Of a DNA stretch of 64,000 nt, positions 5,087 to 23,299 are shown one piece after another. The DNA is from Pseudomonadales bacterium (GTDB taxonomy: Bacteria > Pseudomonadota > Gammaproteobacteria > Pseudomonadales > Azotimanducaceae). Under the pieces are notes generated by a model. It had not been told where the DNA came from and ran no database searches. It worked only from the letters and a program-made list of their open reading frames with translations. Position 1 is the first letter of the stretch. Each line of letters begins with the position of its first letter. The position numbers were made by a program, and so were the translations under genes. The stretch spans positions 310,001 to 374,000 of the forward strand of contig JANQPF010000009.1 of NCBI GenBank assembly GCA_028285415.1, in the 5' to 3' direction.

Positions 5087-6067
5087 TCAGCGGGCATCAA
5101 CCTGGCCTCCTTGAGGCGACGTATCGTGGCCCTGTGTTGCTAGAGGTTGACGACCCGGAGTAAGTGCAATGACTAACGACTCAACGTTGTAGCGCATCAT
5201 TTCCCGGTAAGTACTTGCGGGTCCCTGTGCCTCACTCAACGCGTCGGAATAGAGAGGACCACCAACGGCAATTCCGGCATCATCCGCAATGCGTTGAATC
5301 AACCGAGGACTCGCGATGTTTTCTACGAATAGGGCCCGCACATTTTGCTCGCGTATCTGGTCAATCACACTCGCGACATCCGCAGCGGTTGCATCCACCT
5401 CAAAGCTGAACCCTACCGGCGCTAAAAAACGAATCTGAAAGTCGCGCCCCAGGTATCCGAACGCGTCATGACTTGTTACGACAACCCGATTGCTTATTGG
5501 TATGTCTGAGACCTGACTCAACAGCTGTTCTTCCAGTGCCGTCAAGGCATTCAGGTATTGCTGCTGCCGCTCCTTCAATGCATCTGCATGCTGTGGCCGC
5601 TGTGCGATCAAAGCGCGAGTAATGTTGCGAACGTATACGCGAATGTTGCGAAAACTCTGCCAGGCATGCGGGTCGGGTTCATCCCCATGCGAGATGATAT
5701 CCACCCCGCGACTGGCAATGAGCTGCCGATTGACGTAGCCACTGTTTTCTATCAAACGTGACATCCACCCCTCGAACGCCAGTCCGTTGAATACCACCAG
5801 GTCAGCCTGAGTCAGAGCAATGGCGTCGGAAGGTTTAGGATGGTACGTGTGGGCGTCTGCATCAGGACCCACCAGATTGACGACATTGACAAACTCGCCT
5901 CCAAGCTCGTTGACCAGGTCTTCTAGAATGGTGAAGCTCGTGACAACGCGTATCGGAGCATTTCGTGCAACAACTTTGTCTGTCAACAGTTCGCTCGTTC
6001 GAGCATCGTTAGCGCCAAGCAATACCAGCAAAAGAAACAACTTAAACAGTGTTGAAACGAGGCGCAT
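5087..6067 (-). CDS. znuA: Zinc ABC transporter, periplasmic binding protein
   Basis: A 326-aa cluster A-I (ZnuA/TroA) metal-binding lipoprotein-like protein with signal peptide MRLVSTLFKLFLLLVLLGAN. Likely metal ligands are His in DAHTYHPKPSD (near residue 73), His in DPHAWQS (near 140), His in TSHDAFGY (near 200) and Asp in LYSDALS near the end. It lacks the long His-rich loop of many ZnuA proteins. It is the last gene of a minus-strand znuC-znuB-znuA operon, 3 bp after znuB. It would deliver zinc (possibly manganese) to ZnuB in the periplasm. Zinc is favoured by the Zur context. Confidence 0.88.
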   Translation of the reverse strand: MRLVSTLFKLFLLLVLLGANDARTSELLTDKVVARNAPIRVVTSFTILEDLVNELGGEFVNVVNLVGPDADAHTYHPKPSDAIALTQADLVVFNGLAFEGWMSRLIENSGYVNRQLIASRGVDIISHGDEPDPHAWQSFRNIRVYVRNITRALIAQRPQHADALKERQQQYLNALTALEEQLLSQVSDIPISNRVVVTSHDAFGYLGRDFQIRFLAPVGFSFEVDATAADVASVIDQIREQNVRALFVENIASPRLIQRIADDAGIAVGGPLYSDALSEAQGPASTYREMMRYNVESLVIALTPGRQPLATQGHDTSPQGGQVDAR

Positions 6068-6070
6068 GGC

Positions 6071-6937
6071 TTAGCCGGCGAGATGCCGCTTTGGATAGCG
6101 TTGTTCAAGGAGTCCGCCGTTCAATCCAAGCAGCACTGAGACGATGTACACGCCACCGAACGCAAGAACTATCGTGGGCCCTGTAGGCAGATCGAAGTGA
6201 AAGGATAACAACAGGCCAAGATAACAACCGCCAAAACTCATCAGTACAGCGACGATCAAAGTGGCATCCAGAGTCTTCGCCCAGAATCTGGCAGCCGCGG
6301 CTGGCAAAATCATGATCCCAATGGCCATCAATGTGCCCAGAGCATGGAAGCCAGCAACGAGGTTAATCACCATTAGGAATAAGAATCCGAAGTGCGCGAT
6401 TGAACTTGCGCGGCCCGTGCTGCGCAAGAAATGGGGGTCGACACACTCGATCACCAGGGGGCGAAACAGACAGGCCATGATCAGCATGCTGATGCTGCTG
6501 ATACTGGCAAGCAGCCAGAGAGCTGCGTCGTCGAGTGCCAAGATGTTACCAAAGAGCACGTGAAACAAATCCACGTTGCGGTGCTTAAGGGAGATAACCA
6601 ACACGCCCAAAGCAAGAGAAATCAGGCAAAATGAGGCTAAGCTGGAGTCTTCTTTAGAATGCGTGCTGCGCGCTACCCAACCGGCGAGTAATGCCACGAC
6701 AAACCCTGCCGCTAAGCCGCCAAGGCTGAGCCCAACAAGGGACAGGCCTGAGATGAGATACGCGATTGCAGCGCCCGGTAGGATAGCATGCGCCATGGCA
6801 TCACCGGTCAGACTCATGCGCCGAAGCGTCATGAATACACCGGTAGGCACGGCGCCGAGGCAGACTGCCAGGCTACCGATGAGGGCACGCTGCATAAAGG
6901 CGTATTCAGTAAACGGATCCAACAGTAGCCTGTCCAC
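6071..6937 (-). CDS. znuB: Zinc ABC transporter, permease
   Basis: A 288-aa ABC-3 family permease with about eight to nine hydrophobic segments. The N-terminal MRRMSLTGDAMAHAILPGAA-type signature (RRMSLTGDAMAHA near 40-52) is characteristic of ZnuB/TroC proteins. It is the inner-membrane channel of the importer. The gene starts 1 bp after the znuC stop and ends 3 bp before znuA, so the three are one transcription and probably translation unit. Confidence 0.9.
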   Translation of the reverse strand: MDRLLLDPFTEYAFMQRALIGSLAVCLGAVPTGVFMTLRRMSLTGDAMAHAILPGAAIAYLISGLSLVGLSLGGLAAGFVVALLAGWVARSTHSKEDSSLASFCLISLALGVLVISLKHRNVDLFHVLFGNILALDDAALWLLASISSISMLIMACLFRPLVIECVDPHFLRSTGRASSIAHFGFLFLMVINLVAGFHALGTLMAIGIMILPAAAARFWAKTLDATLIVAVLMSFGGCYLGLLLSFHFDLPTGPTIVLAFGGVYIVSVLLGLNGGLLEQRYPKRHLAG

Positions 6938-6938
6938 G

Positions 6939-7670
6939 CTAGACCATACCTACCCGGCACCAGCGTGCACTTTCATCAAACGCTGCAGAACGCTGTCCTG
7001 CCCGTCTTAAGTTGCCTTCTGTAAGGACTTCCTTCGTTGGTCCATACCCTACGCATTCTCGCGCGAGCAGCAGCGTCTGCGGACAATTCTCTCGAACGTA
7101 GTCCATGTCATGCGTCACCATGATCACGGTCTGCCCGGCTTGATGCCATTGCTTGATGATTTGCGTGAGATCAGCAAGCGTTTGGGCATCAATCGCACTA
7201 AACGGTTCATCTAGCAGGATCACTGGCTGATCTTGCACCAAGACGCGTGCGAAGAGGCAGCGCTGTAGTTGCCCACCCGAAAGGGTGTTGATCAAGCGTC
7301 TTTCAAAACCCTGCAAGCCCACAGCGGCAATGGCTTCGTCGCATCGCTCGAGTTCCTGGCGGGATACCGACTTTGTCGCTCGAAGCTTCGGCCACAACCC
7401 CGTTGCCACCAATTCACACACTGTCATCGGGAAGCTCTTGTCCAACCGTGTCTGCTGTGGCAGGTAGGTGACCGTACCTGGACACAGGCCTTCGATACTT
7501 CCCTCGTTAATCGCCAGGAGCCCTGCCATGGCATTCAACAAAGTCGACTTACCTGCCCCGTTTGGGCCCACTATGGCTAACCATTCGCCTTGAGCGATCG
7601 TTGCTGTTAAGTGGTAAACCACCGGGTGGAGATCATAAGTCAGTGTTAGGTTGTTCAGGTGAATGCTCAC
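6939..7670 (-). CDS. znuC: Zinc ABC transporter, ATPase
   Basis: A 243-aa ABC ATPase. It has Walker A GPNGAGKSTLLNA near 38, signature LSGGQLQRCLFARVL near 135, Walker B PVILLDEPFSAID near 156 and the His switch MVTHD near 190. An ATG-initiated frame reaches 7703, but I choose the GTG at 7670. Translation from it gives VSIHLNNLTLTYDLHPV, a normal ABC N-terminus, and the GTG overlaps the TGA of the preceding small ORF (GTGA), a classic coupling. It energises ZnuB/ZnuA. The likely promoter carries the Zur-box-like site at 7952-7968. Confidence 0.88.
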   Translation of the reverse strand: MSIHLNNLTLTYDLHPVVYHLTATIAQGEWLAIVGPNGAGKSTLLNAMAGLLAINEGSIEGLCPGTVTYLPQQTRLDKSFPMTVCELVATGLWPKLRATKSVSRQELERCDEAIAAVGLQGFERRLINTLSGGQLQRCLFARVLVQDQPVILLDEPFSAIDAQTLADLTQIIKQWHQAGQTVIMVTHDMDYVRENCPQTLLLARECVGYGPTKEVLTEGNLRRAGQRSAAFDESARWCRVGMV

Positions 7671-7777
7671 GTTGAATGGGTAACCCATACGACCATCGCC
7701 CACACAACACCACTGACAACCAGCGCCAAAGCGACCCGATGGAAGACGCTCCAGAACAACAGGGGTTTGATACGCAT
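7667..7777 (-). CDS. Possible 36-aa single-pass membrane peptide upstream of znuC
   Basis: The ATG at 7777 opens a 36-codon frame reading MRIKPLLFWSVFHRV, followed by a hydrophobic stretch ALALVVSGVVWAMVVWV. That is one basic N-terminus plus a likely transmembrane helix. Its TGA overlaps the GTG start of znuC by 4 nt. It is preceded by in-frame stops, so it is not the end of a longer gene. It may be a small subunit or a leader ORF that couples translation. No family is recognised. Confidence 0.45.
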   Translation of the reverse strand: MRIKPLLFWSVFHRVALALVVSGVVWAMVVWVTHST

Positions 7778-8079
7778 CTGCTTCAACGCGGTGCAGCCTT
7801 ACTGATCCAGCACTAACGACAGAGACGCTGCATTTCCAGCTGCAAATCTGTCGGCGAATCCAGCGGTTTTTCCAGCAATCACGTGGCTAAGTTGTTGTTG
7901 GTTTGTGCCTGACCTTTGCATGCTGCGAGGCTGGAGTGTTTCTAGAATTAAATGATACGTTATATCATATCTGCTAACCAACTACGCTCAAGGTCCTACG
8001 ATCCCGACACCTCAGGCGACTGGTTGCTTCGGACGAAAAGCAAAAGACCCCCGGTTGACATGCTCAAGGGAGAGATTGA
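7778..8079. other. Divergent intergenic region between znu operon and DUF1636 gene
   Basis: About 300 bases with no convincing gene. It carries the Zur-box-like palindrome at 7952-7968 and presumably the two divergent promoters. A 40-codon frame reading MQRSGTNQQQLSHV (minus, ending at a TAA at 7799) is open, but its longer version runs through the palindrome; I treat it as leader. Confidence 0.5.
7952..7968. promoter_or_regulatory. Zur-box-like operator A
   Basis: ATGATA-CGTTA-TATCAT is a perfect 6-5-6 inverted repeat. The overlapping GTTATATCATATC agrees with the core GTTATAACATAAC seen at the other sites in 11 of 13 positions. It lies 175 bp before the small ORF ahead of znuC and 112 bp before the DUF1636 gene, so zinc-bound Zur could repress both directions. 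Confidence 0.65.
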
Positions 8080-8652
8080 ATGCCACGACTTAGTGTTGCC
8101 GACTGCGAAACCCTGCTGCGGGTCCTCGAGGAAGAGCGGACACCGAACGCAGATACACTCAGGGCGGCCGTGCGTCTCCGGCAGCGACTCGAGCAGGCTA
8201 AGGCAAGTAAGGCGACCTCTGACCTGGCGTGCGAGCCAGATCCGACGCCTCACACATCGAGCGCAAGTCTCGGGTCGTGCACGCTCCACGTATGCACTTC
8301 CTGCGCCCCTCCGGGAACTCCCCGTGGACCAAAAGAACATCGTCCCGGCTTCAAGCTCTATCAAGAACTTCGCGCGATGCTCGATGAGAATCCGTTGGGC
8401 CAACACGTGGATATCCAGCCTGCCCAGTGTCTCAGCTTGTGTCCGCGCCCATGCGGAATTGCGCTCTCGTCGCCTGGTGCGTGGAGTTACCTCTTCGGCG
8501 ATCAGCAACCCGGCGAGACGGCGAAAGACGTTTTAGAGTGCATCTCGACGTACATCGGCACCGGAGACGGCCATATGCAACGTGATCGACGCCCGCAGAC
8601 GCTCCGGGCCAGTGTACTGGGGCGTGTGCCGCCACTCGACGGTGACCAATGA
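8080..8652 (+). CDS. DUF1636 family metal/cluster-binding protein
   Basis: A 190-aa protein. The C-terminal two thirds match DUF1636: LHVCTSCAPPG near 69, GFKLYQELRAML, then CLSLCPRPCGIAL near 122 and WSYLFGDQ. The C-x2-C and C-x3-C-x3-C cysteines suggest a thioredoxin-like 2Fe-2S or metal site. The family is known to sit beside cobalamin-synthesis-type (COG0523) genes. The N-terminal about 60 residues are charged, with a leucine-rich helical part and no recognised domain. The ATG follows AGGGAGAG. It is the first gene of a DUF1636-COG0523-WD40 series. Confidence 0.8.
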   Translation: MPRLSVADCETLLRVLEEERTPNADTLRAAVRLRQRLEQAKASKATSDLACEPDPTPHTSSASLGSCTLHVCTSCAPPGTPRGPKEHRPGFKLYQELRAMLDENPLGQHVDIQPAQCLSLCPRPCGIALSSPGAWSYLFGDQQPGETAKDVLECISTYIGTGDGHMQRDRRPQTLRASVLGRVPPLDGDQ

Positions 8653-8715: not shown

Positions 8716-8740
8716 AGCACCACTTGGCAAGGAGAATTAG

Positions 8741-10087
8741 ATGAATATGTCTGAAAAGGTTCCGGTAACGATCCTCACGGGCTTTCTCGGCTCCGGAAAG
8801 ACGACCTTACTCAACCGGATCTTGAGTGAGGAACACGGAAAAAAGATTGCAGTGATTGAAAACGAGTATGGGGAAGTTGGCATCGATCAGGGGCTCGTCA
8901 TCGACGCGGACGAAGAAATATTCGAAATGTCCAACGGCTGTATCTGCTGCACGGTGCGCGGGGACCTGATTCGCGTACTCGGCAATCTCATGAAGCGCCG
9001 CGACAAGTTTGACTATGTATTGGTAGAGACCACAGGTCTGGCCGACCCAGGCCCCGTCGCTCAGACATTCTTCATGGACGACGAGATTCGCGACGAGTTC
9101 TCGCTGGACGGGATCGTCACGCTGGTTGATGCCGCTCACATCGATCAGCAGCTCGGCCGCAGCGATGAGAGCACCGAGCAAGTGGCGTTCGCAGACGTGT
9201 TGGTGTTGAACAAGACCGACCTCGTCAGCGACGACACACTTGACGGGCTAGAGGCGCGACTCAGAGACATGAACCGGATGGCCCAAATCGTGCGGAGCGA
9301 GCAAGCCAACCTCCCTGTCGACACGGTACTCAACCTGAGCGCTTTCGACCTCGACCAGGCGCTCGAGCGGCGCCCCACCTTCCTCGAGCCGGAGTATCCG
9401 TTCGAGTGGACCGGAGTCTACTCACTCGAACCGGGCCGCTATGAGCTCAGCCTTGCGGAAGGTCCTGATCCAGAGATGTCGCTTGTCGTCGTGTACGACC
9501 AGCGCGCGGATGACTCTGCACTCCGCGACGGGGCGGAATTGTGTGTGCGACAGTACGCCGAACCGGCGGAGAACGTTCTTCCAGGGGAATCGATTCCAGT
9601 GGGCACACATGTGAACCTCAAGCTCGAAGACCCGGGCCGAAAGTCATTCTTGTTGAAGATCGACAGACCGGTACAGGTTGGCCTCTACGCCCAGCATACA
9701 GCGGAGGAGTTTGATCTCCAGCTAGTGAGCGCAGATGGCACTGCAGTAGCGCTTACTACCGAGCGAACCTGGGTTGCACAACACGAACACGACGATGAGG
9801 TTGGTTCGATCGCCATCGAACGAGATGGCGATGTAGATCCTGACCTGCTCAATATCTGGCTCAGCAGATTGCTCGCCGAGCGAGGTGTCGATATTTTTCG
9901 AATGAAGGGTTTCATCAGCTTTGCGGGTGAGCCAAAGCGCTTTGTCTTCCAAGGGGTCCACATGCTGTTCGACAGTCAGCCCGACCGTCTCTGGGGAGAT
10001 TCACCTCGGCGCAATCAGCTTGTCTTTATCGGCCGCAACCTCGACGAAGAGAGCCTGCGTGAAGGGTTCGAAGCGTGCCTGACCTGA
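8741..10087 (+). CDS. COG0523 (CobW/ZigA-like) metallochaperone GTPase
   Basis: A 448-aa G3E GTPase. It has Walker A GFLGSGKTTLLNR near 15, ENEYGEVGID near 43, the metal-binding SNGCICCTVRGDL (CxCC near 66-70), ETTGLADPGP near 96 and NKTD near 155. The CobW C-terminal domain runs from about 375 (FRMKGFISFAGEPKRFVFQG). Between these domains lies an extra beta-rich section of about 150 residues beginning WTGVYSLEPGRYELSL, which makes the protein longer than usual. Members of this subfamily under Zur control are thought to move zinc to client proteins during starvation. The start is fixed by AAGGAG 8 nt upstream. Confidence 0.9.
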   Translation: MNMSEKVPVTILTGFLGSGKTTLLNRILSEEHGKKIAVIENEYGEVGIDQGLVIDADEEIFEMSNGCICCTVRGDLIRVLGNLMKRRDKFDYVLVETTGLADPGPVAQTFFMDDEIRDEFSLDGIVTLVDAAHIDQQLGRSDESTEQVAFADVLVLNKTDLVSDDTLDGLEARLRDMNRMAQIVRSEQANLPVDTVLNLSAFDLDQALERRPTFLEPEYPFEWTGVYSLEPGRYELSLAEGPDPEMSLVVVYDQRADDSALRDGAELCVRQYAEPAENVLPGESIPVGTHVNLKLEDPGRKSFLLKIDRPVQVGLYAQHTAEEFDLQLVSADGTAVALTTERTWVAQHEHDDEVGSIAIERDGDVDPDLLNIWLSRLLAERGVDIFRMKGFISFAGEPKRFVFQGVHMLFDSQPDRLWGDSPRRNQLVFIGRNLDEESLREGFEACLT

Positions 10088-11118
10088 GGACCAACCGGTC
10101 AGAGGGCATGCTTCGCGAGGGATGGTCTGCGGTAGTGGGTGACTACGCAATCGCCGGGGGTTGGGCGCGAGGTGGCGAAATGCTACTTGTTGGTGATAGC
10201 GCAGGTGGCGTCTACGGGTTCGACGGCGAATCCGGGGCTGCCCTCTGGTCACATCAGATGGCCCACGAAGGCGGCTTGCTGGCGTTGGCGATCAACCCAG
10301 AGGGCACTGCGTTCGCAACGGCTGGACAAGATGAACGACTCCTGATCTGGGATGCCGCAGAGGGTCAAACGACAAAAGCGATCGACATCGATAACGGCTG
10401 GGTCGAAAACGTCGCCTGGTCACCGAACGGTAAATGGTTGGCGGCTTCCTGCTCGCGGCAAGTTCGTGTCTTTGATTTGGGCGGCGACGAGTTGTGGCGC
10501 TCTGACGATCACCCGAGCACAATCAGCACGATCGCCTGGTCCAAGTCTAGTGAGTTAGCTACGGCCTGCTATGGACAGGCGACGTTTATGGAAGGGCCTA
10601 CCGGAACGATTCGTCAGAGGCTCAAATGGAAAGGTTCCTTGATATCCATGGCGCTGAGCCCGGACGGGAAGGTGGTCGCCTGCGGTAGTCAGGACAACTC
10701 TGTGCACTTCTGGCGTCGCTCGACCGGGCACGACTCGATGATGCCCGGATACCCCGGCAAACCGACGGCGTTGGCTTTCGACACAAAAAGCACGCTTCTC
10801 GCTACCGGTGGCGACGCCACAGTAACGGTGTGGAGTTTTCAGGGACGTGGTCCGGAGGGAACGCACCCCGGCAGGCTACAACTGCATGTCAAAACTGTCT
10901 CAACCCTTAGCTTTGCACCCCGAGGGAGGCGTCTGGCCTCGGGAGGTCGCGACGGAGCGGTGGTTGTGTGGAGCCTTCAGAAGGATGGAGAGGGCGAGCC
11001 CGTGGGGGCAGCGCTTGTCCCAGACGTAGTGGCTGAAGTCTACTGGCGGCCTGACGGGAGGGCGCTGGCGGCGCTGGATGCGCAAGGTGGCGTGACCGTC
11101 TGGCGAGTCGGAGAATGA
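10075..11118 (+). CDS. WD40-repeat protein coupled to COG0523 gene
   Basis: A 347-aa beta-propeller protein with about seven WD-like repeats, for example LLIWDAAEGQ, VRVFDLGGDELW, VHFWRRSTG, VTVWSFQG, VVVWSLQKDG and VTVWRVGE. There is no signal peptide. The GTG at 10075 overlaps the GTPase gene by 13 bp; an ATG at 10108 is an alternative start. The overlap implies co-translation, so the propeller may scaffold the GTPase or a client. This role is inferred from position only. Confidence 0.8.
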   Translation: MPDLRTNRSEGMLREGWSAVVGDYAIAGGWARGGEMLLVGDSAGGVYGFDGESGAALWSHQMAHEGGLLALAINPEGTAFATAGQDERLLIWDAAEGQTTKAIDIDNGWVENVAWSPNGKWLAASCSRQVRVFDLGGDELWRSDDHPSTISTIAWSKSSELATACYGQATFMEGPTGTIRQRLKWKGSLISMALSPDGKVVACGSQDNSVHFWRRSTGHDSMMPGYPGKPTALAFDTKSTLLATGGDATVTVWSFQGRGPEGTHPGRLQLHVKTVSTLSFAPRGRRLASGGRDGAVVVWSLQKDGEGEPVGAALVPDVVAEVYWRPDGRALAALDAQGGVTVWRVGE

Positions 11119-11186: not shown

Positions 11187-11783
11187 TCAGCCATCACCTT
11201 CGCGTTTACCGAAGTGGCGCTCGGTTCTTTCGTATCGTTGCTGCGCTTCCAGACACAAGGTGGCGATCGGCCGCGCTTCGAGACGACCGAGCCCAATTTC
11301 CTCGCCGGTTTCCTCGCAGTAGCCGTAGTCACCCTGGGTAATGCGTTCCAGAGCGGCATCAATTTTGCGAATCAGCTTCCGTTCTCTATCGCGGGTCTTC
11401 AGTTCGAGCCCAAACTCTGCTTCCTGCGTTGCACGGTCGTTTGAATCCGGGAGCGCACCAGCTTCGTCCTGCATGTGGTGAATCGTGCGATCCACTTCTT
11501 CCATGAGCTCATGTTTCCAGTTTTCAAGGATCTTGCGAAAATGCTCGAGCTGGCCTTCGCTCATGTACGCTTCATTTTTCTTCGCTCTATATGGTGCAAC
11601 GCCGTAAATCAAATCAGGTTTGTTTACCTTCGCAGTTGCTGCTGATTTCTTCCGTGTACGAGGCTTGGAGGATGGCTCCTTGGCAGGGGCCTTCGTCTTC
11701 TTCGTAGTCTTGCTCTTGGTTGCTACCTTGCTCTTCGTCTTTGTCGCAGCCTTCTTACGTGGACCTTGGGGGGGCACAGACAC
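11187..11783 (-). CDS. dksA2: DksA-family protein, zinc-independent (two-Cys) type
   Basis: A 198-aa DksA/TraR protein. The coiled-coil part has MSEGQLEHFRKILENWK near 96 and EEVDRTIHHMQDEA. The finger reads GYCEETGEEIG then ATLCLEAQQ: Cys is kept at finger positions 1 and 3, with Thr and Ala at 2 and 4. This CxxT...CxxA form is that of Pseudomonas DksA2, which works without zinc and supports the stringent response under zinc limitation. I choose the GTG at 11783, which follows GAGGAG and comes 1 bp after the preceding small gene's stop; the longer frame to 11900 would overlap that gene. Residues about 10-55 are a Lys/Ala/Thr-rich tail of histone-H1 type. Confidence 0.85.
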   Translation of the reverse strand: MSVPPQGPRKKAATKTKSKVATKSKTTKKTKAPAKEPSSKPRTRKKSAATAKVNKPDLIYGVAPYRAKKNEAYMSEGQLEHFRKILENWKHELMEEVDRTIHHMQDEAGALPDSNDRATQEAEFGLELKTRDRERKLIRKIDAALERITQGDYGYCEETGEEIGLGRLEARPIATLCLEAQQRYERTERHFGKREGDG

Positions 11784-11784
11784 T

Positions 11785-12012
11785 TCAGCTCTCCTCGGTT
11801 TTGACAATGGCCGCGATATTGGCCGATAACCACGCCGACGCAGCAGCAAGCTGCAACCAATCCCCGCTGGAATCGACGCCAGAAGCCAGCATGCTGGCAA
11901 TCCAGCACAAGCTGGCCAGCGTCTGTCCGAGCCGTTCCGCGCGGAACAACCTGTCGCGAACCCGCCGCAAGATGTGCGGGACGCCGTCTTTCTGGTGGTT
12001 CGCGGTCAACAT
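11785..12012 (-). CDS. Small membrane protein, 75 aa, in the zur-linked operon
   Basis: The ATG at 12012 overlaps the flavoprotein stop (ATGTTGA) and is preceded by GGAGAGG; the stop lies 1 bp before the dksA2 start. This exact packing argues for a real gene. The N-terminal half is basic (ILRRVRDRLFRAERLGQT). Two hydrophobic segments follow, SLCWIASMLASGV and LQLAAASAWLSANIAAIV, which could form a helical hairpin in the inner membrane. No family is recognised. Confidence 0.7.
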   Translation of the reverse strand: MLTANHQKDGVPHILRRVRDRLFRAERLGQTLASLCWIASMLASGVDSSGDWLQLAAASAWLSANIAAIVKTEES

Positions 12013-13124: not shown

Positions 13125-13180
13125 CGCTTCCACCCGGGACGCTGCTCAACGACCATGTTAATCCGGCAAACAGGTTCCAC

Positions 13181-13684: not shown

Positions 13685-13739
13685 TGAGGTATTTGCCCGG
13701 TGATTCTTTGGAGCACGGTACTTGTCGTAGAAAAACGAG

Positions 13740-14447: not shown

Positions 14448-14789
14448 ATGCCGGAGTTTGATCCTGACACTGTTCGCACGCTTGTCGGGGACCTCGCACA
14501 CGGTGACCACACACTCGATCTGCGGGGGGTCTCCTCGACCGACGCAAAATCCGCGATCTCCGACATGCTGGATCAGTCAACCTCGCATGTCTTGAAAAAG
14601 GTGGTAGTCCGCATCGATCCGGCCACCTCAACCAGTGGAGAGACCCTCTTCCTTCCAGTCGGCCAACAACTCCTTGAAGCGCGCAAGCAGGGTCTCATTA
14701 CTCGCCTGCAGACTTTACCCGAAGCGGACGGTGGCGGGTTTTACATCGAACTCACGGGGCATCCTCGAGATGAGGAGACGCAGCAATGA
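14448..14789 (+). CDS. Small Smr-like protein preceding cysS
   Basis: A 113-aa protein. It has [17 protein letters not shown] near 22, VVVRIDPA near 55, [20 protein letters not shown] near 63, and GGGFYIELT near the end. The LDLRG start and alpha/beta order resemble a Smr (MutS2 C-terminal) domain, but the conserved His of LDLHG is Arg. The function is unknown. The ATG at 14448 is chosen over the upstream ATG at 14427. Its stop overlaps the cysS start by 4 bp (ATGA), so the two are co-translated. Confidence 0.65.
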
Positions 14790-16214: not shown

Positions 16215-16667
16215 TCAGTCTGTCGGAGGTATCCAGGTCAGCGACGAGTGATGTAGCGAGATCAACACCTTCCCTTCGAGTTTGTGATACGCGAAGGTGT
16301 AGTCGGCGCGTGTCGCGTCGCCTTGTTCGTTCACGAATGTATAGTGACCCATGTCTTTGTAACCCAGGCCGCCCGCCTTGAGGATGGGGCCAACAGCGCT
16401 CTGAAACTCCACGCGCTTCCAGTTGTTGAACAGAAAGCCGCCGTCGTTCGGATAGTCCGAATTGCCGCCAACAAAGTAAGAGCGTGCGCCCGCCTCATCC
16501 AACCGAATTTCGTCTGCCAGCGTCGGTTTGAACAGCAACGGTTCGTCAGGTGAGCCGAAGTCATACAAACCAATCAGCGTATCGATGTCTTGATCGATGA
16601 CCGCCTTGGCCCATGCTCGTTGGGCGTTGATCACTTCGGCTTTTGTCATCTTTTCGAACTGTCTCAT
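16215..16667 (-). CDS. SnoaL/NTF2-like protein
   Basis: A 150-aa cone-shaped NTF2-fold protein of the SnoaL/CaMKII-association type. It has AWAKAVIDQDIDTLIGLYD near 16, a loop with DEPLLFKPTLADEIRLDE near 38, and C-terminal strands ADYTFAYHKLEGKVLISLHH. No catalytic role can be assigned. The start at 16667 follows an AGGGA site; the longer frame to 16778 would run through the palindrome at 16716. It converges with cysS, 46 bp away. Confidence 0.75.
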   Translation of the reverse strand: MRQFEKMTKAEVINAQRAWAKAVIDQDIDTLIGLYDFGSPDEPLLFKPTLADEIRLDEAGARSYFVGGNSDYPNDGGFLFNNWKRVEFQSAVGPILKAGGLGYKDMGHYTFVNEQGDATRADYTFAYHKLEGKVLISLHHSSLTWIPPTD

Positions 16668-16730: not shown

Positions 16731-16784
16731 GGTGCGCGGAGCGCATTGTAGGCGCCGTGATGCATGCGCCCACGACACATTCTG

Positions 16785-16790
16785 TATACT
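16785..16790 (+). promoter_or_regulatory. -10 element for the PHP gene
   Basis: TATACT, a near-consensus -10. No good -35 box is seen at the right distance. Transcription from here would start near 16797, which excludes the ATG at 16791 and favours the GTG at 16827 as the start of the next gene. Confidence 0.4.
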
Positions 16791-16826
16791 ATGCGGCGCT
16801 TTCGCACTAAATGTGGATTCAACGCT

Positions 16827-17456
16827 GTGATTCTCGATTTACACAACCACTCCATCAAGTCCGACGACGGACGCGCCAAGGTGGAGAACTATTGTCAGTG
16901 GATACGCTCCAGGGACATCCCAATCGACGGCATGGTCCTGACCGAACACCGTCAGTTCGAACCGACTGACTACTCCGCTCTGGAGAAAAAGTACGGCCTT
17001 GTCATTCTCGAAGGCAGCGAAGTCGAAACCGAGTATGGGCACGTTCTTGTCTATGGGGTGACTGACGCGTTGATGCGTGAGTTCGATTTTGAACGTCTCG
17101 ACATCCCGCTGGCGGAAGTTCTGGCAGGTGCTGAGAAGCACGGCGCAATCGCCGTGCCCTGTCATCCCGGACGACCGCGGGTTGGCATGTTCGCACACAC
17201 CGAAGCGCTGGGCGTTCCGGAAGGTGTACGCATCGTTGAGGTCTACAACGGAGGCAGTCGCGAAAACGAAGACCAGATAGCCATCGACAAAGCGGAAGAG
17301 CTTGGCTACCTCGGGATCGGCGGCAGTGATGCACACATCGTCAGCCATATCGGTCGCTGCGCTACTCGATTTCCTGACCGTATCGATTCGATGGGCGAAC
17401 TGGTCGAAGCGCTCGCGTCGGGTGAGTTTGAAGCCATTAAACCAGCCAGCGAGTAG
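16827..17456 (+). CDS. PHP-domain metal-dependent phosphoesterase
   Basis: A 209-aa PHP protein (polymerase and histidinol phosphatase fold). Metal motifs are LDLHNHSIKSDDG near 4, MVLTEHRQF near 35, EGSEVETEYGHVLVYG near 60, AVPCHPGRPR near 108, VEVYNGG near 137 and GGSDAHI near 165, giving the usual cluster of His/Asp/Glu ligands for two or three metal ions. The substrate is unknown. The GTG start is chosen because the strand-1 motif must begin close to the N-terminus and the -10 box lies at 16785. It is convergent with the dihydroorotase gene. Confidence 0.85.
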   Translation: MILDLHNHSIKSDDGRAKVENYCQWIRSRDIPIDGMVLTEHRQFEPTDYSALEKKYGLVILEGSEVETEYGHVLVYGVTDALMREFDFERLDIPLAEVLAGAEKHGAIAVPCHPGRPRVGMFAHTEALGVPEGVRIVEVYNGGSRENEDQIAIDKAEELGYLGIGGSDAHIVSHIGRCATRFPDRIDSMGELVEALASGEFEAIKPASE

Positions 17457-17485: not shown

Positions 17486-18817
17486 TTATCGATTGAACGA
17501 CAATCGCATGGCGTGACCGGTGGTCTCAACCACCTTCTCTCCATCGTAGACCCGGGTGCCATTCACCCATGTACCTCTGATCGACGACGCAAAGGCGTGT
17601 CCCGAGAACGGCGACCAGCCACACTTGTAGAGAAGACTGTCGTCGCTTACCGGGGTCGGATGATCCGGCGCAATCATGACCAGATCCGCATAGTAGCCTT
17701 CACGAATGTATCCACGCCCTTCGATTGCGTAGCGTTTCGCAGGATTGTGGGCCGTTTTGTCGACAACCTGCGCCAAGGTGAGTCGATCGTTGTGGACATG
17801 GTCCATCAGACTAAGCAACGCATGCTGAACGAGCGGCAGCCCGGCCGGAGATTTTGCGTAGTCCTGTTCTTTTTCAGCCAGCGTGTGAGGGGCGTGGTCG
17901 GTGGCGATGATGTCGATGCGGCCGGTGTGCAGCGCCTCGATCAACGCGTCTCTGTCCTGTTGGCTTTTGATTGCCGGGTTGCACTTGATGAAATTGCCCA
18001 GCCGGGGGTAATCATCTTGCGTGAACCATAAGTGGTGCACGCAGGCTTCCGCGGTAACGGCCTTGCCGTCGATCGGCCCCGGGGAAAAGAGCGCCAACTC
18101 CTTCTCTGTTGTGATGTGCAGCACGTGCAGCTGACTGTTGTAACGCTTTGCGAGACCCACCGCGTACTCGGACGATGTGAAGCAAGCCTCGGTATCGCGA
18201 AGGCGCGGATGGTCTTCTATCGAAAGCGTGTTCTGACTACGCAGAATCTCCTCTTCATTCCTTTGCATCACAGGACCACTTTCGCAATGCGTCACGATCA
18301 GCGTTGGCGTTTCACGAAAGATCAGCTCGAGCGCAGCCGGGTCTTCAACGAGCAGATCACCGGTTGACGCGCCCATAAACACTTTCAAACCACAGTGTCT
18401 GGCCGCATCAAGCCGCTTGATCTGCTCGATATTGTTTTCAGTGGCACCCAGATAAAACGAATAGTTAGCCATCGAACGAACAGAGGCGAGCTCAAACTTG
18501 CTCTCGAGCGCAGCGATGCTGGTGGTTGCGGGATTGACGTTCGGCATTTCCATGTAGCTGGTAATGCCGCCCGCAACGGCCGCGCGGGATTCGCTTGCGA
18601 TGCTCCCTTTGTGGGTCAACCCAGGCTCGCGAAAGTGCACCTGGTCATCGATCATCCCCGGCATCAGGTAACACCCATTCGCCTCCACCACGTGGTCGTT
18701 TGGCTGCGCTGTAATCGCCGTTGAAATCTCGACAATTCGATCACGCTCGATCCGAACGTCGGATTCGAACAAGCTGTCCTCGTTGACGATCCGGGCAGCT
18801 TTTATCAGGGTATCCAT
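17486..18817 (-). CDS. pyrC2: Dihydroorotase paralogue
   Basis: A 443-aa amidohydrolase that interconverts carbamoyl-aspartate and dihydroorotate in pyrimidine synthesis. It has MPGMIDDQVHFREPGLTHKG near 52, the carbamylated-Lys motif LKVFMGASTG near 143, THCES near 174, LHVLHITT near 232 and IATDHAPHT near 304. In the first motif the normal HxH is Q-V-H, so one ligand of the first metal is missing; the same form is seen in the PyrC2 of some Zur regulons and in Bacteroidetes. It is the third gene of an operon with the M19 and DUF2817 peptidases (15 bp after M19) that begins at Zur box C. Confidence 0.88.
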   Translation of the reverse strand: MDTLIKAARIVNEDSLFESDVRIERDRIVEISTAITAQPNDHVVEANGCYLMPGMIDDQVHFREPGLTHKGSIASESRAAVAGGITSYMEMPNVNPATTSIAALESKFELASVRSMANYSFYLGATENNIEQIKRLDAARHCGLKVFMGASTGDLLVEDPAALELIFRETPTLIVTHCESGPVMQRNEEEILRSQNTLSIEDHPRLRDTEACFTSSEYAVGLAKRYNSQLHVLHITTEKELALFSPGPIDGKAVTAEACVHHLWFTQDDYPRLGNFIKCNPAIKSQQDRDALIEALHTGRIDIIATDHAPHTLAEKEQDYAKSPAGLPLVQHALLSLMDHVHNDRLTLAQVVDKTAHNPAKRYAIEGRGYIREGYYADLVMIAPDHPTPVSDDSLLYKCGWSPFSGHAFASSIRGTWVNGTRVYDGEKVVETTGHAMRLSFNR

Positions 18818-18832: not shown

Positions 18833-20065
18833 CTACCTTACGATGTCCGGCGATTCGAGTGACACCGTCTTCGCAGCTTCCACTTCACGCATCAAGCGCA
18901 ACAGATTCCCCGACCAGATTTTCGCAATGTCCTGACGACTGTACCCTGCGTCGAGGAGCGCCGCGGTGATCCTGGGGACAGCCGCAACATCTGCCATGCC
19001 ATCGACACCGCCGCCGCCGTCCCAATCCGCACCGATACCCACATGGTCGACACCAACCAGATCGAGTACATAAAGCAGATGTTCGACGTATTTCTCAAAG
19101 CTCGATCTTGGCGGTGGGTAACGTTTGTAGACCTCTGCCCGAGCGCTTCGATAGGCCTCAAACTCCTTGTCGGAAAGCGATGAAAGATCAGGCCCGAACG
19201 TTGCACGCAACTCGTCCATCGCCGCTTTGTGTTCAGGCGTGGGCACAAGCTCTTCAAGGTAGCCACCGAACGCGTTGACGTGCACAACGCCTCCCGATTC
19301 CGCCAATTGGACCAAGAGCTCATCCGGCACGTTACGCGCATGGTCGTAAACGCCGTCCGGCCCGCTGTGGGACAAGATGACCGGGGTCGAGGATATTCTC
19401 ATCATGTCACGCAGCGCGTCGTCCGAAGCGTGCGAGGCGTCGACGATGATGCCCAGGCGGTTTGCCTCCCGCACGAGTTCCTCGCCGATGGGGCTGAGAC
19501 CTTCATACAACACAACGCTATCGGTAGAACTATCGGCAAACTGGTTGTTGCTGAAGTGCACCGGGCCCAGCATCCGCAGGCCGCCACTATAAAACGTCTC
19601 CAACAGAGACACGTCGCGCCCCAGCGGGTAGGCATTTTCCATGCTCTGGAAGACGACAATCTTGCCCTCATCATGAATGCGCTGGGCATCGTCGGCAGAA
19701 AACGCCAGTTCAACCGCATCGGCGTACCTTGCCGCCAGCTCCCGTATGGCCATCTGGCGAAGCACGGCAGAATTGCGGGCTCGGACGTAGGCGGCGTCGT
19801 TCAACTCTCCCTGGGCTGTAAAGATGACCCAGAAACCGCCGTCCAGCCCCCCTTCCTGCAGGCGCGGCAGGTCGACATTCGTGCCGTTTTCAGAGAACGA
19901 GCCTCTCGCTGAGAAGGCATAGTCTTGTCGATGAAACAAAGCCGGGGTATCCAGGTGCGCGTCTAACGTCAGGAGGGACTGGTGCAGTTCGTCTGCATCA
20001 ACAGCTTCCCCGTGGGCCGCTGACACTGAGACCAGCCATAGTGCGAGAAGCCAGATCTTTTTCAT
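18833..20065 (-). CDS. Exported membrane dipeptidase (M19 family)
   Basis: A 410-aa renal-dipeptidase-like zinc enzyme with signal peptide MKKIWLLALWLVSVSAAHG. Motifs are LTLDAHLDTPALF near 33 (HxD), QSMENAYPLG near 139 (bridging Glu), FSNNQFADS near 170, IVDASHASDDALRDMM near 211 and PVILSHSGPDG near 233. It would split dipeptides, including D-amino-acid types, in the periplasm. The gene lies 15 bp before pyrC2 and 30 bp after the DUF2817 gene. Regulation from Zur box C is inferred from operon structure. Confidence 0.9.
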   Translation of the reverse strand: MKKIWLLALWLVSVSAAHGEAVDADELHQSLLTLDAHLDTPALFHRQDYAFSARGSFSENGTNVDLPRLQEGGLDGGFWVIFTAQGELNDAAYVRARNSAVLRQMAIRELAARYADAVELAFSADDAQRIHDEGKIVVFQSMENAYPLGRDVSLLETFYSGGLRMLGPVHFSNNQFADSSTDSVVLYEGLSPIGEELVREANRLGIIVDASHASDDALRDMMRISSTPVILSHSGPDGVYDHARNVPDELLVQLAESGGVVHVNAFGGYLEELVPTPEHKAAMDELRATFGPDLSSLSDKEFEAYRSARAEVYKRYPPPRSSFEKYVEHLLYVLDLVGVDHVGIGADWDGGGGVDGMADVAAVPRITAALLDAGYSRQDIAKIWSGNLLRLMREVEAAKTVSLESPDIVR

Positions 20066-20095
20066 GTCGGTTTTACTCCTGGAACGTGTCGTGGT

Positions 20096-21178
20096 TTAGC
20101 GTTGTAGTTCACGTAGGGTCGAATTCACAACGTCAAGCGCGCGTTCGTACAGCATCGATTTCCACTTCGCCTCGTCACAGTAGAACGCATCTCTCACCTG
20201 GCGCTTGATGTCCCGGCCGAGGGGGCTATCCAGCGATCCGAACTGGTACAGCCAGTTGTCCGCCCGGACCGCGGTCATGACTTCCTTCAAGGACAACGTG
20301 CCATATTCGAGCGCCACAAAGTACGTTTCGACATCCGGCAGCGCGCGCTCCACCCCGTGGGCCATCGTGCCCTGAATAGGCGCCGACGTAGACGTCCCCG
20401 CATCAGGGTCAGTCACTTCGTAGTCCCGATAGATCTCGAACGTTCGATCAACCTGAGCCCGGGATCCCGCGGCAATCATCTCTCCATAACCGTAAGGCCC
20501 GAGACCGGTATGAAAATCGATGAAGCACGCCCGTCTGGCCGGTTCGGCCACTTCCTTTACCAGGGCAAGCACGGTCTCGGCCGACCAGCTCAGGGTTTCC
20601 CCACCATAGAAGACCCCATTGCTGTGGGTGTACTGACCCCCGGAGGCCGCATGCTGCAACGCTCCGGGACCGTTGTCTTTGGCATACTGAGCAAGCGCCG
20701 CATCCGCCTGTACGCGTGTCTCGCCTTCCCATGCCTCGGGCACCAGGTGGGCATGAATGTCGCCGTAGCCATTGTCGCTGGGTACTTCATGGGCAAAATC
20801 CAGAAAGTTGCGGTTCAGATCGATGTTGTCTTCGTTGACGCGCCGATCGTGCGCAAAGCCATAAGGGTTCACTGCATGCACCAGGACAATTCGCAGGTTG
20901 GGTCCCAGGCCACCAAAAACGGATTCACCGACCAGCGCAGACTGGATGCCCGATCCGCAATAACCTTCTACACCATGCGTGCCACTGAAGAGCATGAGCA
21001 GGTGTTCCGCATCGGCAGAACCCAACATCGCGACGTCCAGGAAAAGATCACTCCCGTCCGGTGCTTTTGCCCGGTCGTTCTGGTACGCATCTACGGTAAA
21101 TCCCCGCGCTTCACAGAGTTGGAGGAACTTGCCGCGCGCGGCCTGATAGTTTGCAGAGAAGTAGTTTTCTATGTCCAT
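20096..21178 (-). CDS. DUF2817 (M14-like) carboxypeptidase
   Basis: A 360-aa protein of the DUF2817 family, related to M14 zinc carboxypeptidases. Metal and active-site motifs are FSGTHGVEGYCGSG near 64 (HxxE), NPYGFAHDRRVNEDNIDLNR near 108, ACFIDFHTGLGPYG near 217 (third His) and FVALEYGT near 288 (catalytic Glu). There is no signal peptide, so it acts in the cytoplasm. It is the first gene of the operon with M19 and pyrC2; its start lies 63 bp from Zur box C. Confidence 0.85.
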   Translation of the reverse strand: MDIENYFSANYQAARGKFLQLCEARGFTVDAYQNDRAKAPDGSDLFLDVAMLGSADAEHLLMLFSGTHGVEGYCGSGIQSALVGESVFGGLGPNLRIVLVHAVNPYGFAHDRRVNEDNIDLNRNFLDFAHEVPSDNGYGDIHAHLVPEAWEGETRVQADAALAQYAKDNGPGALQHAASGGQYTHSNGVFYGGETLSWSAETVLALVKEVAEPARRACFIDFHTGLGPYGYGEMIAAGSRAQVDRTFEIYRDYEVTDPDAGTSTSAPIQGTMAHGVERALPDVETYFVALEYGTLSLKEVMTAVRADNWLYQFGSLDSPLGRDIKRQVRDAFYCDEAKWKSMLYERALDVVNSTLRELQR

Positions 21179-21241
21179 GCTATGTCCCTGCTACGTCCAT
21201 GCTGCAACGGCCCGACAATCGACTATGCTGAAGTGCGCCAC

Positions 21242-21254
21242 GTTATAACATAAC
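21242..21254. promoter_or_regulatory. Zur-box-like operator C
   Basis: GTTAT-AAC-ATAAC, a perfect 5-3-5 palindrome with the same core as box B. It lies between the DUF2817-M19-pyrC2 operon and thrS (start 125 bp away). A TATACT -10-like element at 21303-21308 probably serves thrS. Confidence 0.8.
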
Positions 21255-21379
21255 AAGATGAGAAGGGACCCAAAGCGGCATGCGTTTACGCGCAAATCAC
21301 CCTATACTGCGCGCCGTTTGTCATCTTCCCTATCTAACCACGCGGCCTCTGGTAAGGGCCGCCACTGAAAGAGGTCTAC

Positions 21380-23299
21380 ATGCCGCATATCACCCTACCT
21401 GATGGTTCTTCACGTCAGTTCGACCAAGCCGTCACCGTCCACGACGTCGCCGCCGATATCGGCGCGGGCCTGGCGAAAGCCGCCCTGGCCGGCAAGGTCG
21501 ACGGCAATCTGGTCGATACCTCTTTCCTGATCGAACAGGATGCAGACGTTGCCATCATCACCACCAAGAGCGAAGAGGCGCTCGAGCTCATTCGCCACGA
21601 CGCGGCGCATGTCATGGCTCAGGCCGTGCAGGAGCTGTTTCCCGGTACGCAGGTGACCATCGGACCTGCAATCGAAGACGGTTTTTACTATGACTTCGCG
21701 CGGGAAGAACCCTTCTCGCCCGACGATCTGGAAAAGATAGAAAAGCGTATGCAGGAGATTGTCGAGCGTGATCTGCCGATCGAGCGGGAGGTCTGGGACC
21801 GTGACGAGGCAAAACGGCAATTTGCCGACATCGGCGAGAGCTACAAAGTCGAAATCATCGAAGACATCATTCCCGAGGGCGAGGACGTCTCCGTCTATCG
21901 ACAAGGCGACTGGTTTGACGTTTGCCGCGGTCCGCATTTGCCCAGCACCGGCAAGCTGCCCAAGGCGTTCAAGCTGATGAAGCTGGCAGGCGCTTACTGG
22001 CGCGGCAACTCGGACAACGAGATGCTGCAGCGGATATACGGCACCGCATGGCGTGACAAGAAGGAGCTGAAAGGCTACCTCCATCGGCTGGAAGAGGCGG
22101 AAAAACGCGATCACCGCAAGCTCGGGCGCAAGCTTGATCTCTTTCACTTCAGCGATGAAGCGCCCGGATCGGTGTTCTGGCATCCGAAAGGTTGGACGCT
22201 GTTCCTGCAGCTGCTCGAATACATGCGCAAGCGTCAGGAAGATGCCGGCTACGTTGAGGTCAACACGCCCGACGTCATGGATCGGAGCCTCTGGGAAACG
22301 TCCGGGCACTGGTTCAACTACCGGGAAAACATGTTCTCGACACAAACTGAGGACGAACGCGTCTTCGCCCTGAAGCCGATGAACTGTCCCGGTTCGGTAT
22401 CCATGTTCGCACAAGGGCTGAAGAGCTATCGCGACCTGCCCCTGCGGATGGCCGAGTTCGGCAAGGTACATCGTTACGAACCCTCCGGAGCGTTGCACGG
22501 CTTGATGCGCGTGCGCCACTTCACTCAGGACGACGCGCATATTTACTGCACCGAAGAGCAGATGGAGCAAGAGTGCATTGACGTCGTGGCGCTTGTTCTC
22601 GATATCTACAAAGATTTTGGGTTCGAGGACGTCGTGATCAAGCTATCGACCCGGCCCGAAAAACGCATCGGCAGCGACGAAATCTGGGACAAACTGGAAG
22701 GCGCGTTGAGCAACGCGCTGGACGTGATGGGTCTGGAATACGTGCTCTATCCGGGCGAAGGCGCCTTCTACGGTCCGAAGCTCGAGTTTGTCTTGCGCGA
22801 TGCCATCGGCCGGGACTGGCAGTGTGGCACGCTGCAGGTGGACATGAACCTGCCCGAACGGTTCGACATCTCCTACGTGGACGAAAGCGGCGGCCGCGAC
22901 AAGCGTCCAGTGATGCTGCATCGCGCCCTCTTCGGATCCCTGGAACGGTTTATCGGGATCCTGATCGAACACTACGAAGGCAAGTTCCCGGTCTGGCTGT
23001 CACCCGTGCAAGCTGCGCTGATGACAATCACCGACAAACAGGACGCCTACGTCAACGAGGTCGAGGAGCGCCTGAAATCGCGCGGCATCCGCGTCATTTC
23101 AGATCTCAGAAACGAAAAGGTCGGATTCAAGATCCGTGAACATACGCTCCAGGCCATCCCCTACCTTCTGGTAGTGGGCGATCGAGAGGTGGCGAACGGC
23201 GAAGTGGCCGTACGCACTCAGAGCGGCGAAGACCTGGGCGTCATGTCAGTAGATGCCTTTGTAGACCACGTCGAAGAGAACGTGGCCAACTTGCAATGA
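21380..23299 (+). CDS. thrS: Threonyl-tRNA synthetase
   Basis: A full-length 639-aa class II synthetase. The TGS domain starts [14 protein letters not shown]. The editing (N2) domain has [16 protein letters not shown] near 73 and [13 protein letters not shown] near 180. The catalytic core has [10 protein letters not shown] near 334, [20 protein letters not shown] near 371 and [13 protein letters not shown] near 512. The zinc ligands (Cys of NCPG, His of DDAH, His of MLHRA) are kept, but the His of the usual NCPGH is Ser. It is not followed by infC-rpmI-rplT as the housekeeping gene often is, and Zur box C is upstream, so a zinc-regulated second ThrRS is likely. A GAAAGAGG site precedes the ATG. 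Confidence 0.93.

Follow-up and report, generated by a model that had tools for sequence, protein, structure and literature searches.

A probable Zur-controlled zinc-starvation island in a Pseudomonadales bacterium, with an Asp-form HisI paralogue and a neighbouring iota-carbonic anhydrase

The window, by which is meant the whole 64,000-nucleotide stretch analysed here (contig JANQPF010000009.1, positions 310,001 to 374,000), comes from a bacterium of the Pseudomonadales. At 5087..23299, ORFs and Pfam matches agree with the gene content given in a preliminary description: ZnuCBA, DUF1636, COG0523 and WD40 proteins, DksA2, a flavoprotein, HisI, a FUR-family regulator, CysRS, a PHP protein, dihydroorotase, M19 and DUF2817 peptidases and ThrRS (Table 1). 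Two genes were absent from that description, one for an iota-carbonic anhydrase (iota-CA) and one for a small Smr-like protein. The assignment of the COG0523 GTPase to subfamily 5 is a call from context, the pairing with the WD40 gene, and not from a subfamily tree. The WD40 protein recurs at 68-70% in two other loci (L094, L100), where the COG0523-WD40 pair has the same order. The 75-aa ORF adjoins the flavoprotein gene both in a genus relative (G006; 77% identical) and in L104 (63%), while the FAD oxidoreductase recurs in L104, L140 and L148, and in G006 its gene immediately follows a Zur box. The Smr-like protein is found at 58-62% in three relatives. The gaps within DUF2817-M19-pyrC2, a predicted operon, are 15 and 30 bp.

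Table 1. Genes and candidate Zur boxes in the window
Feature	Position	Strand	Evidence and remarks
ZnuA, zinc-binding protein	5087..6067	-	PF01297 E 1.5e-75
ZnuB, permease	6071..6937	-	PF00950 E 4.6e-53
ZnuC, ATPase	6939..7703	-	PF00005 E 3.5e-26; named by position beside ZnuAB
Zur box	7954..7971		between znuCBA and DUF1636-COG0523-WD40; 3 mismatches to general pattern, 0 to AYGTTATAWCATAWC
DUF1636 protein	8080..8652	+	PF07845 E 6.5e-31
COG0523 GTPase, subfamily-5-like by WD40 partner	8741..10087	+	PF02492 (cobW), PF07683 (CobW_C)
WD40 protein	10075..11118	+	PF00400 E 3.1e-31; 13-bp overlap with COG0523
DksA2	11187..11784	-	PF21157/PF01258; C-T-C-A finger replacing four Cys; start uncertain
75-aa ORF, putative membrane protein (preliminary description)	11785..12012	-	no Pfam match
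FAD oxidoreductase (flavoprotein)	12006..13133	-	Pyr_redox_3, PF13738 E 1.2e-89
HisI2, D-form phosphoribosyl-AMP cyclohydrolase	13181..13687	-	NF000768 157.6 bits, cut-off 126
Zur box	13737..13754		between predicted hisI2 and zur operons
Zur	13784..14290	+	PF01475 above cut-off; best NCBIfam model Zur NF008646, 107.6 bits
Smr-like small protein	14448..14789	+	AF2 pLDDT 68.7; top PDB match Smr domain 2zqe E 4.8e-4
CysRS2	14786..16168	+	PF01406 E 4.2e-121
iota-CA, COG4337 type	16215..16667	-	7c5x E 2.3e-31, 7c5v E 5.8e-19
PHP-type hydrolase, Zur link putative	16764..17456	+	PF13263; 88% in G006; start uncertain
PyrC2, dihydroorotase with DDQVH	17486..18817	-	NF006688 679 bits, cut-off 535; 2gwn E 1.6e-134
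M19 dipeptidase, in predicted pyrC2 operon	18833..20065	-	PF01244 E 6.7e-93
DUF2817 peptidase-like, first gene of predicted pyrC2 operon	20096..21178	-	PF10994 E 1.6e-105
Zur box	21237..21254		between DUF2817-M19-pyrC2 and thrS2
ThrRS2, full length with TGS	21380..23299	+	TIGR00418 724.6 bits; TGS PF02824
Zur box, fourth	28775..28792		outside previously described block; ahead of DUF1826
DUF1826 protein behind fourth box	28746..29471	+	PF08856 E 1.6e-41; listed ORF overlaps box, true start taken as downstream

The three matching palindromes reported previously are present, and a fourth was added ahead of the DUF1826 gene. A scan of the window with a general Zur-box pattern gave 8 rows at three or fewer mismatches (1.47 expected), and a scan of the 5.97-Mb genome with the box consensus gave 24 rows at two or fewer mismatches versus 6 for the reversed control. 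At zero or one mismatch there were nine genomic rows, representing eight distinct sites, seven of which fall in C2:292050-338789 (47 kb of 5.97 Mb). A scan for 13-bp half-site palindromes was uninformative (89 matches versus 90 expected), and a search for direct and inverted repeats found no informative repeat family. The score of the Zur protein against NF008646 lies below the equivalog cut-off of 167. G006 shares modules of the island, with hisI2/zur, FAD/zur' and folE2 each preceded by a box. No box of two or fewer mismatches was found in the upstream gap of its own thrS2; the thrS2 copy of G009 is preceded by a box with no mismatch.

The region is about 50 kb long and extends to both sides of the 18-kb block originally delimited, whose bounds cut through it. 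It reaches about 20 kb to the left of the window, where it includes FolE2, two further COG0523 genes (one of them ZigA), DUF1826 and a TonB receptor, and its right end is the DUF1826 gene of Table 1. An ArsR-like ORF and a Cys-rich peptide adjoin it. The gene content and the boxes make it very likely that the block is a Zur-controlled zinc-starvation island.

Clusters of this kind were already described in 2009 (Haas et al. 2009, PMC2770081), as the preliminary description recognized; since the WD40 gene beside subfamily-5 COG0523 is reported there too, that partner is not new. In the accessible parts of that paper, the clusters share with the island ZnuABC, Zur, COG0523, FolE2 and paralogues of HisI, PyrC, CysRS, ThrRS and DksA, with DUF1826 in the cluster figure. 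The HisI paralogues are stated there to keep their zinc residues, whereas in the island HisI2 Asp replaces one zinc Cys. The Zur-linked carbonic anhydrase named there is of the gamma class, whereas the island's neighbouring enzyme is of the iota class. The Zur regulons of Pseudomonas protegens and P. aeruginosa likewise include znuABC, yciC genes, folE2, pyrC2, dksA and TonB receptors, with hisI2 in P. protegens; unlike in the island, can is explained as a gamma-CA, and thrS2, cysS2 and iota-CA are not among the genes listed in the part of the source available (PMC6103462). Loci of 19-20 kb in Marinobacter excellens HL-55 (L131) and M. nauticus (L128) hold FolE2, CysRS, PyrC, D-form HisI, DksA2, COG0523, DUF1826 and Zur- and Znu-like genes, and L131 also a WD40 gene. 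Their gene order differs from that of the island, and no match to ThrRS, the FAD protein or iota-CA lies within the flanks examined. With these two loci and that of Pseudomonas matsuisoli (L148) comparable, the island cannot be called unusually complete.

The island region would gather this bacterium's main Zur regulon in a single stretch of chromosome. Under ample zinc, zinc-bound Zur would sit on the palindromes and repress; when zinc falls, promoters at the region's seven boxes would open. Those in the window would drive znuCBA and DUF1636-COG0523-WD40, hisI2-FAD-orf75-dksA2 and zur-smr-cysS2, DUF2817-M19-pyrC2 and thrS2, and DUF1826. Those to its left would serve folE2, the TonB receptor and the genes flanking the 292050 box, namely a COG0523-DUF1826 pair to one side and, to the other, an alcohol dehydrogenase, DUF4198 and ZigA. 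The induced cell would import zinc, its COG0523 GTPases would direct the scarce metal, and DksA2, FolE2 and PyrC2 would replace zinc proteins (C4-finger DksA and E. coli-type PyrC in the first and last cases). D-form HisI2 would stand in for the three-Cys zinc HisI, CysRS2 and ThrRS2 would serve as extra or higher-affinity copies with zinc residues retained, and the neighbouring iota-CA would hydrate CO2 without metal.

The absence of any other housekeeping copy had been named as grounds for rejecting the zinc-starvation reading. Because a genome-wide search found second copies of all five genes (hisI and cysS on C12, thrS on C26, pyrC on C15 and dksA on C9), this objection does not arise. DksA1 keeps CCCC, and the C-T-C-A pattern of DksA2 equals that of 4ijj, which we take to be P. 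aeruginosa DksA2. PyrC2 has Gln for the first metal His (DDQVH), and the genome's own PyrC is of the E. coli type, a different dihydroorotase type, with motifs intact. The housekeeping HisI carries DCDGD. As judged from the alignments, zinc-ligand loss holds for DksA2, PyrC2 and HisI2. It does not hold for CysRS2 and ThrRS2, in which the zinc-ligand residues are retained and which are probably extra or higher-affinity copies. The C26 ThrRS was also considered as a zinc-free form and rejected because its alignment retains the zinc ligands. The idea that the neighbouring housekeeping hisI and cysS genes had recently been duplicated within the genus was rejected as well, since the island HisI2 and CysRS2 fall outside the genus housekeeping clades and group only with G006. 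FolE2, assigned by Pfam/NCBIfam, belongs to a zinc-independent cyclohydrolase family (Haas et al. 2009, PMC2770081).

HisI2 is a member of the HisI sequence family by its NF000768 score, and Asp102 occupies the first of the three catalytic-zinc Cys positions, with the other two Cys and the catalytic His kept. In MtHISN2 the zinc ligands are Cys126, Cys142 and Cys149, and the metal residues are called universally conserved in the section consulted (PMC8102479, citing D'Ordine). Lacking the three-Cys site, HisI2 is classed as a HisI homologue and not as a zinc HisI. By sequence the D-form is one clade across Proteobacteria, forming one side of a branch in a 53-row HisI tree (support 99/91). Asp is present in 82/82 sequences, a count that is not independent evidence because all 80 loci were selected by the scan peptide DDQDAVW, which contains that Asp. 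When the 410 bp surrounding each gene start were scanned, an exact Zur core was present for 18/79 D-form hisI genes versus 29/2548 control windows (Fisher p 1.3e-16), the other 61 having none there. In 9/30 genomes examined the D-form is the sole HisI found; the spare part may therefore have become the standard part.

The iota-CA has its best fold match in 7c5v (model pLDDT only 64) and resembles the Anabaena and Bigelowiella COG4337 enzymes in sequence (E 5.8e-19 and 2.3e-31), fold and catalytic residues. Thr52, Tyr67, His142 and Ser144, invariant in 6/6 aligned rows, correspond to Thr106, Tyr124, His197 and Ser199 of all2909, and the HHSS motif is present. The COG4337 enzymes work without metal in vitro, according to the portion of the report available (PMC8132391), and metal-free CO2 hydration would be expected here. 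Prokaryotic iota-CA is predicted there to carry a signal peptide, whereas no signal-peptide-like stretch was seen by eye at the N-terminus of the island copy. Because it scores 72 bits versus a cut-off of 350 for the NCBI metal-independent CA model, it is probably a separate subfamily. A search of the bacterium's own genome found no beta-family carbonic anhydrase (control detected in 9/14) and no alpha-family match (control detected in only 1/14).

The island apparently supplies a metal-free carbonic anhydrase and a HisI with part of its zinc grip lost. Neither an Asp-form HisI nor an iota-CA-Zur link was found in a full-text literature search, most subscription journals lying outside its reach, and the D-form HisI2 and the iota-CA beside it appear new. 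That some Zur islands hold two zinc-free replacements new to the literature searched, a Cys-to-Asp HisI that uses a metal other than zinc and an iota-CA that is metal-free and seemingly cytoplasmic, is a tentative proposal with somewhat less than an even chance of being right.

One alternative, named in the accessible text of Haas et al. (2009, PMC2770081), is that the paralogues are extra zinc-using copies made in zinc shortage to hold total activity, the Asp of HisI2 simply taking over zinc binding from the Cys. While the zinc residues of CysRS2 and ThrRS2, and the two Cys and His kept in HisI2, are consistent with this, DksA2 and HisI2 each lack a ligand that the housekeeping partner keeps, PyrC2 lacks the first His of the motif kept by the bacterium's own PyrC, and FolE2 belongs to a zinc-independent family. 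That the D-form is the sole HisI found in some genomes also favours this alternative, since the D-form may be a normal housekeeping enzyme; overall, we consider the extra-copy explanation unlikely. It is still less plausible, and in our view very improbable, that the genes form a mobile or general metal-stress cluster whose zinc link is secondary. A second HisI was found in only 2/13 genus genomes, HisI2 and CysRS2 group apart from the genus housekeeping copies, and the ArsR-like ORF and Cys-rich peptide lie alongside, but the palindromes and gene set fit Zur regulons and hardly any of the best boxes lie away from island genes.

A separate question is whether the iota-CA is a passenger beside cysS2, outside the zinc response, which is possible if rather doubtful. 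No recognizable Zur box was found in the upstream gap that it shares with the PHP gene. Its closest homologues outside zinc islands in an order sample (G164, G029) show none of Zur, HisI2 and a box over 30 kb, and among 8 strong matches in the class of G262, 5 lack a zinc neighbour and 1 is ambiguous. Most sampled iota-CA genes are not zinc-linked, and these samples rule out a general zinc link. Against the passenger explanation, iota-CA lies next to D-form hisI on the same strand in L098, L099 and L109, and with one gene between them in L123, with a Zur box at, or immediately upstream of, hisI in L098 and L123; in G376 it lies near zur and a COG0523 gene. The genus mate G006 also has it in a D-form hisI cluster. 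Its presence at 5/80 D-form hisI loci is hard to obtain by chance because the family is rare (11/244 genomes at E 1e-15; 7/385 at E 1e-30).

Bacterial metal-free iota-CA is not known to have an established physiological role, and a candidate role is suggested by its occurrence in some zinc-starvation clusters. The D-form HisI, a wide clade enriched beside Zur and COG0523 genes, contradicts the statement on Zur-linked HisI paralogues printed in the part of Haas et al. (2009) available, and is a testable case of an enzyme switching metal. If the two-replacement proposal is true, HisI2 and iota-CA, together with FolE2, DksA2 and PyrC2, would keep the supply of folate, histidine, pyrimidine and bicarbonate going without zinc.

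Each gene named for the proposed zinc-starvation island in the preliminary description was recovered in the window by ORF calls and Pfam, but the bounds given there (5087..23299) did not hold, as the island continues to the left and to the right. The source genome (G000) is 5.97 Mb in 34 contigs, 99% complete and 3% contaminated; the window corresponds to C2:310001-374000. Zur-type palindromes, or boxes, were sought across all of it with the pattern AYGTTATAWCATAWC at up to two mismatches, yielding 24 rows versus 6 for the reversed control pattern. The nine rows with no or one mismatch represent eight places, seven of them within C2:292050-338789 and one at C2:464689. Genes in the left flank (L029) encode FolE2 and a ZigA GTPase, which score 318 and 703 bits against cut-offs of 215 and 600, as well as a third COG0523 protein, DUF1826 and DUF4198 proteins, a TonB receptor and what by eye looks like an iron-type alcohol dehydrogenase. 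On the right side, box 28775 precedes a DUF1826 gene.

Two other places on C2 carry transport genes. At L028:16653-19837 (C2:286653-289837), a weak box with two mismatches heads three genes: one for an ABC ATPase, one for a MacB-like permease whose very long loop is rich in His, Asp and Glu, and one for a protein of 294 aa that lacks a Pfam match. This trio may resemble the Zur-controlled PA4063-PA4066 genes or the ZrgABC zinc genes. Box C2:464689 coincides with the start of an ORF for a TonB receptor in L030:3310-14758 (C2:458310-469758). Its neighbours, assigned by eye as an ABC system, one MFS protein and a pair of exporter-like ABC proteins, could possibly form a metallophore transport cluster with it.

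Boxes and iota-carbonic anhydrase ORF in the window
Feature	Position	Strand	Description
Box	7954		separates znuCBA (minus) from DUF1636-COG0523-WD40 (plus)
Box	13737		separates hisI2-FAD-orf75-dksA2 (minus) from zur-smr-cysS2 (plus)
Box	21237		separates DUF2817-M19-pyrC2 (minus) from thrS2 (plus)
iota-CA ORF	16215-16667	minus	COG4337 match

Gene spacing outlines compact units around the three tabulated boxes, with gaps of 30 and 15 bp in DUF2817-M19-pyrC2. Given this spacing, the M19 and DUF2817 peptidases, the flavoprotein and the 75-aa ORF look like members of apparent operons behind the boxes. In the genus genome G006, the FAD-orf75-dksA2 unit sits directly behind its own 0-mismatch box; contig C121 of that genome is 17,070 bases long, and locus L103, taken as G006, has the same genes. 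G006 also has two Zur-like genes (L031:3999-4514 and L065:14708-15211), each about 60% identical to the window Zur and preceded by a 0-mismatch box. Counterparts of the flavoprotein occur in L104 (68%) and in the Pseudomonas clusters L140 and L148 (36-40% identity), and matches near hisI2 were found for M19 (L098, 39%) and DUF2817 (L132 and L146, 37%). M19 begins with a signal-like stretch, judged by eye, and our guess is that it is a periplasmic back-up peptidase. The small ORF ahead of cysS2 has a predicted Smr-domain fold (2zqe, E 4.8e-4; model pLDDT 68.7), which suggests a nucleic-acid or ribosome-linked role.

The view that the island enzymes are paralogues was borne out by second copies elsewhere in the genome: HisI and CysRS on C12, ThrRS on C26, an E. 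coli-type PyrC on C15, and DksA on C9 along with two further DksA/TraR matches. Thirteen genus genomes (G000-G012; G007, G011 and G012 about 70% complete) were compared. Both forms of ThrRS occur in G000, G006 and G009, the full-length form alone in G001, G002 and G004, and a lower-scoring divergent form alone in 7 of 13; the latter lacks TGS in those included in an alignment of 16 sequences. The divergent copy of G000 lies at C26:235286-237031. Two of the genomes with both forms, G000 and G009, have a 0-mismatch box ahead of full-length thrS. Upstream of that gene, no box of two or fewer mismatches was found in the single-form genomes G001, G002 and G004, nor in G006. Two dihydroorotase searches identified the island type (DDQVH; DGQVH in G008) as the sole dihydroorotase in 7 of 13 genomes (G001, G005 and G007-G011) and the E. 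coli type as the only one in G002, G003 and G004. G000 has both, G012 a fragment only, and G006 the E. coli type plus a broken island-type remnant (L031:9088-9342, on C121). Thus, for ThrRS and PyrC, the second copy in G000 is the standard enzyme in relatives.

Beside thrS2, at 23333-23797 (minus), lies a 111-aa ORF with CLCECC and no Pfam match at 1e-5 that, by eye, could encode an ArsR-type regulator. After it comes a peptide of 32 aa, 11 of them Cys, which by eye resembles a metallothionein. In G009 (L068), a counterpart of the regulator-like ORF with 85% identity adjoins thrS.

In PR-AMP cyclohydrolase, three Cys bind the catalytic zinc (Cys126, Cys142 and Cys149 in the plant enzyme, according to the text available of PMC8102479). 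The island HisI2 reads DDDQD versus DCDGD in the housekeeping HisI, and keeps the other two zinc Cys and the catalytic His. HisI of this kind is termed the Asp form (D-form) below. In the accessible text of Haas 2009 (PMC2770081), HisI paralogues retain their zinc residues, unlike HisI2 with Asp at one zinc Cys, a contrast drawn with the published description.

A peptide scan of genome contigs with DDQDAVW confirmed 456 matches, and the best 80 loci were studied. DDDQD is present in all 80, which is not an independent count since the scan peptide itself contains the Asp. They include loci of Marinobacter nauticus (L128), Pseudomonas nabeulensis (L140), P. matsuisoli (L148) and Thauera linaloolentis (L134), and a few that are non-proteobacterial by title alone (Bryobacterales, Chloroflexi and Marinimicrobia MAGs). 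A tree of 27 D-forms and 26 canonical sequences (C-forms), drawing on 25 of the best 80 loci, all proteobacterial by title, places the D-forms on one side of a branch (99/91), beside alphaproteobacterial C-forms. Among 30 genomes hand-picked from the best 80 loci, completeness not given, 20 have a canonical DCD copy as well, 9 the D-form alone and 1 a further match interrupted by a stop; the D-form is probably an active enzyme.

Evidence linking the D-form to Zur came from the stretch that runs from 350 bp upstream to 60 bp downstream of the start of the match. Here 18 of 79 usable loci have an exact 10-bp Zur core, versus 29 of 2548 control windows of equal size from other parts of the loci (Fisher p 1.3e-16); with one mismatch the counts are 23 of 79 versus 71 of 2548. 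Marker searches of the best 80 loci (tblastn, 1e-12, 40% coverage) found Zur in 28, COG0523 in 34 to 36, ThrRS in 14 and CysRS in 32, part of which may be housekeeping copies; in a separate count, 14 loci, many of them short, have none of the markers. Asp prefers harder metals than Cys does, so we infer that HisI2 uses Mn, Fe or Mg; Asp can bind zinc too.

The tabulated ORF lacks a Pfam match at 0.01 and matches the solved COG4337 iota-carbonic anhydrases (iota-CAs) 7c5x (E 2.3e-31) and 7c5v (E 5.8e-19), the latter also being closest to its predicted fold (pLDDT 64). Mutations in all2909 show a Thr, a Tyr, a His and a Ser to be essential or important, and all four are conserved in 6 of 6 aligned sequences. 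As far as its text was available, PMC8132391 describes COG4337 enzymes as active after metal stripping, with none of six measured metals present. The window protein scores 72 bits against the NCBI metal-independent CA model, below the cut-off of 350, and so probably represents a separate subfamily. Family searches found no beta-CA or alpha-CA in the genome.

Among the best 80 of 456 HisI2 loci, five have iota-CA within their flanks: directly after hisI2 on the same strand in L098, L099 and L109, one gene away in L123, and in L103. Boxes lie at or just ahead of hisI2 in L098 and L123. PHP adjoins iota-CA in the window and in G006 without a box, including in the gap common to both genes in the window. 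Iota-CA matches at E 1e-15 occur in 11 of 244 genomes of the order. The other two close ones, G164 and G029, have no Zur, HisI2 or box within 30 kb, G164 showing only a distant TonB-receptor match. The eight distant ones have no zinc gene in the 4 to 20 kb examined, where G149 has one 2-mismatch box almost 10 kb off and G213 a single generic match to an ABC ATPase. In the class of G262, eight strong matches in 7 of 385 genomes comprise two that are zinc-linked (G262, the search centre, and G376), one ambiguous (G611, weak Znu-like matches, no box) and five not zinc-linked, two of these at contig ends. A full-text literature search returned no paper that ties iota-CA to Zur in the text it covered, the nearest concerning gamma-CA by its title. 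We conclude that several lineages have brought iota-CA into Zur islands, yet that it has no general link with such islands. In outline, the island fits a known class without standing out from it; it extends beyond its reported bounds, and two of its parts are apparently new variants.
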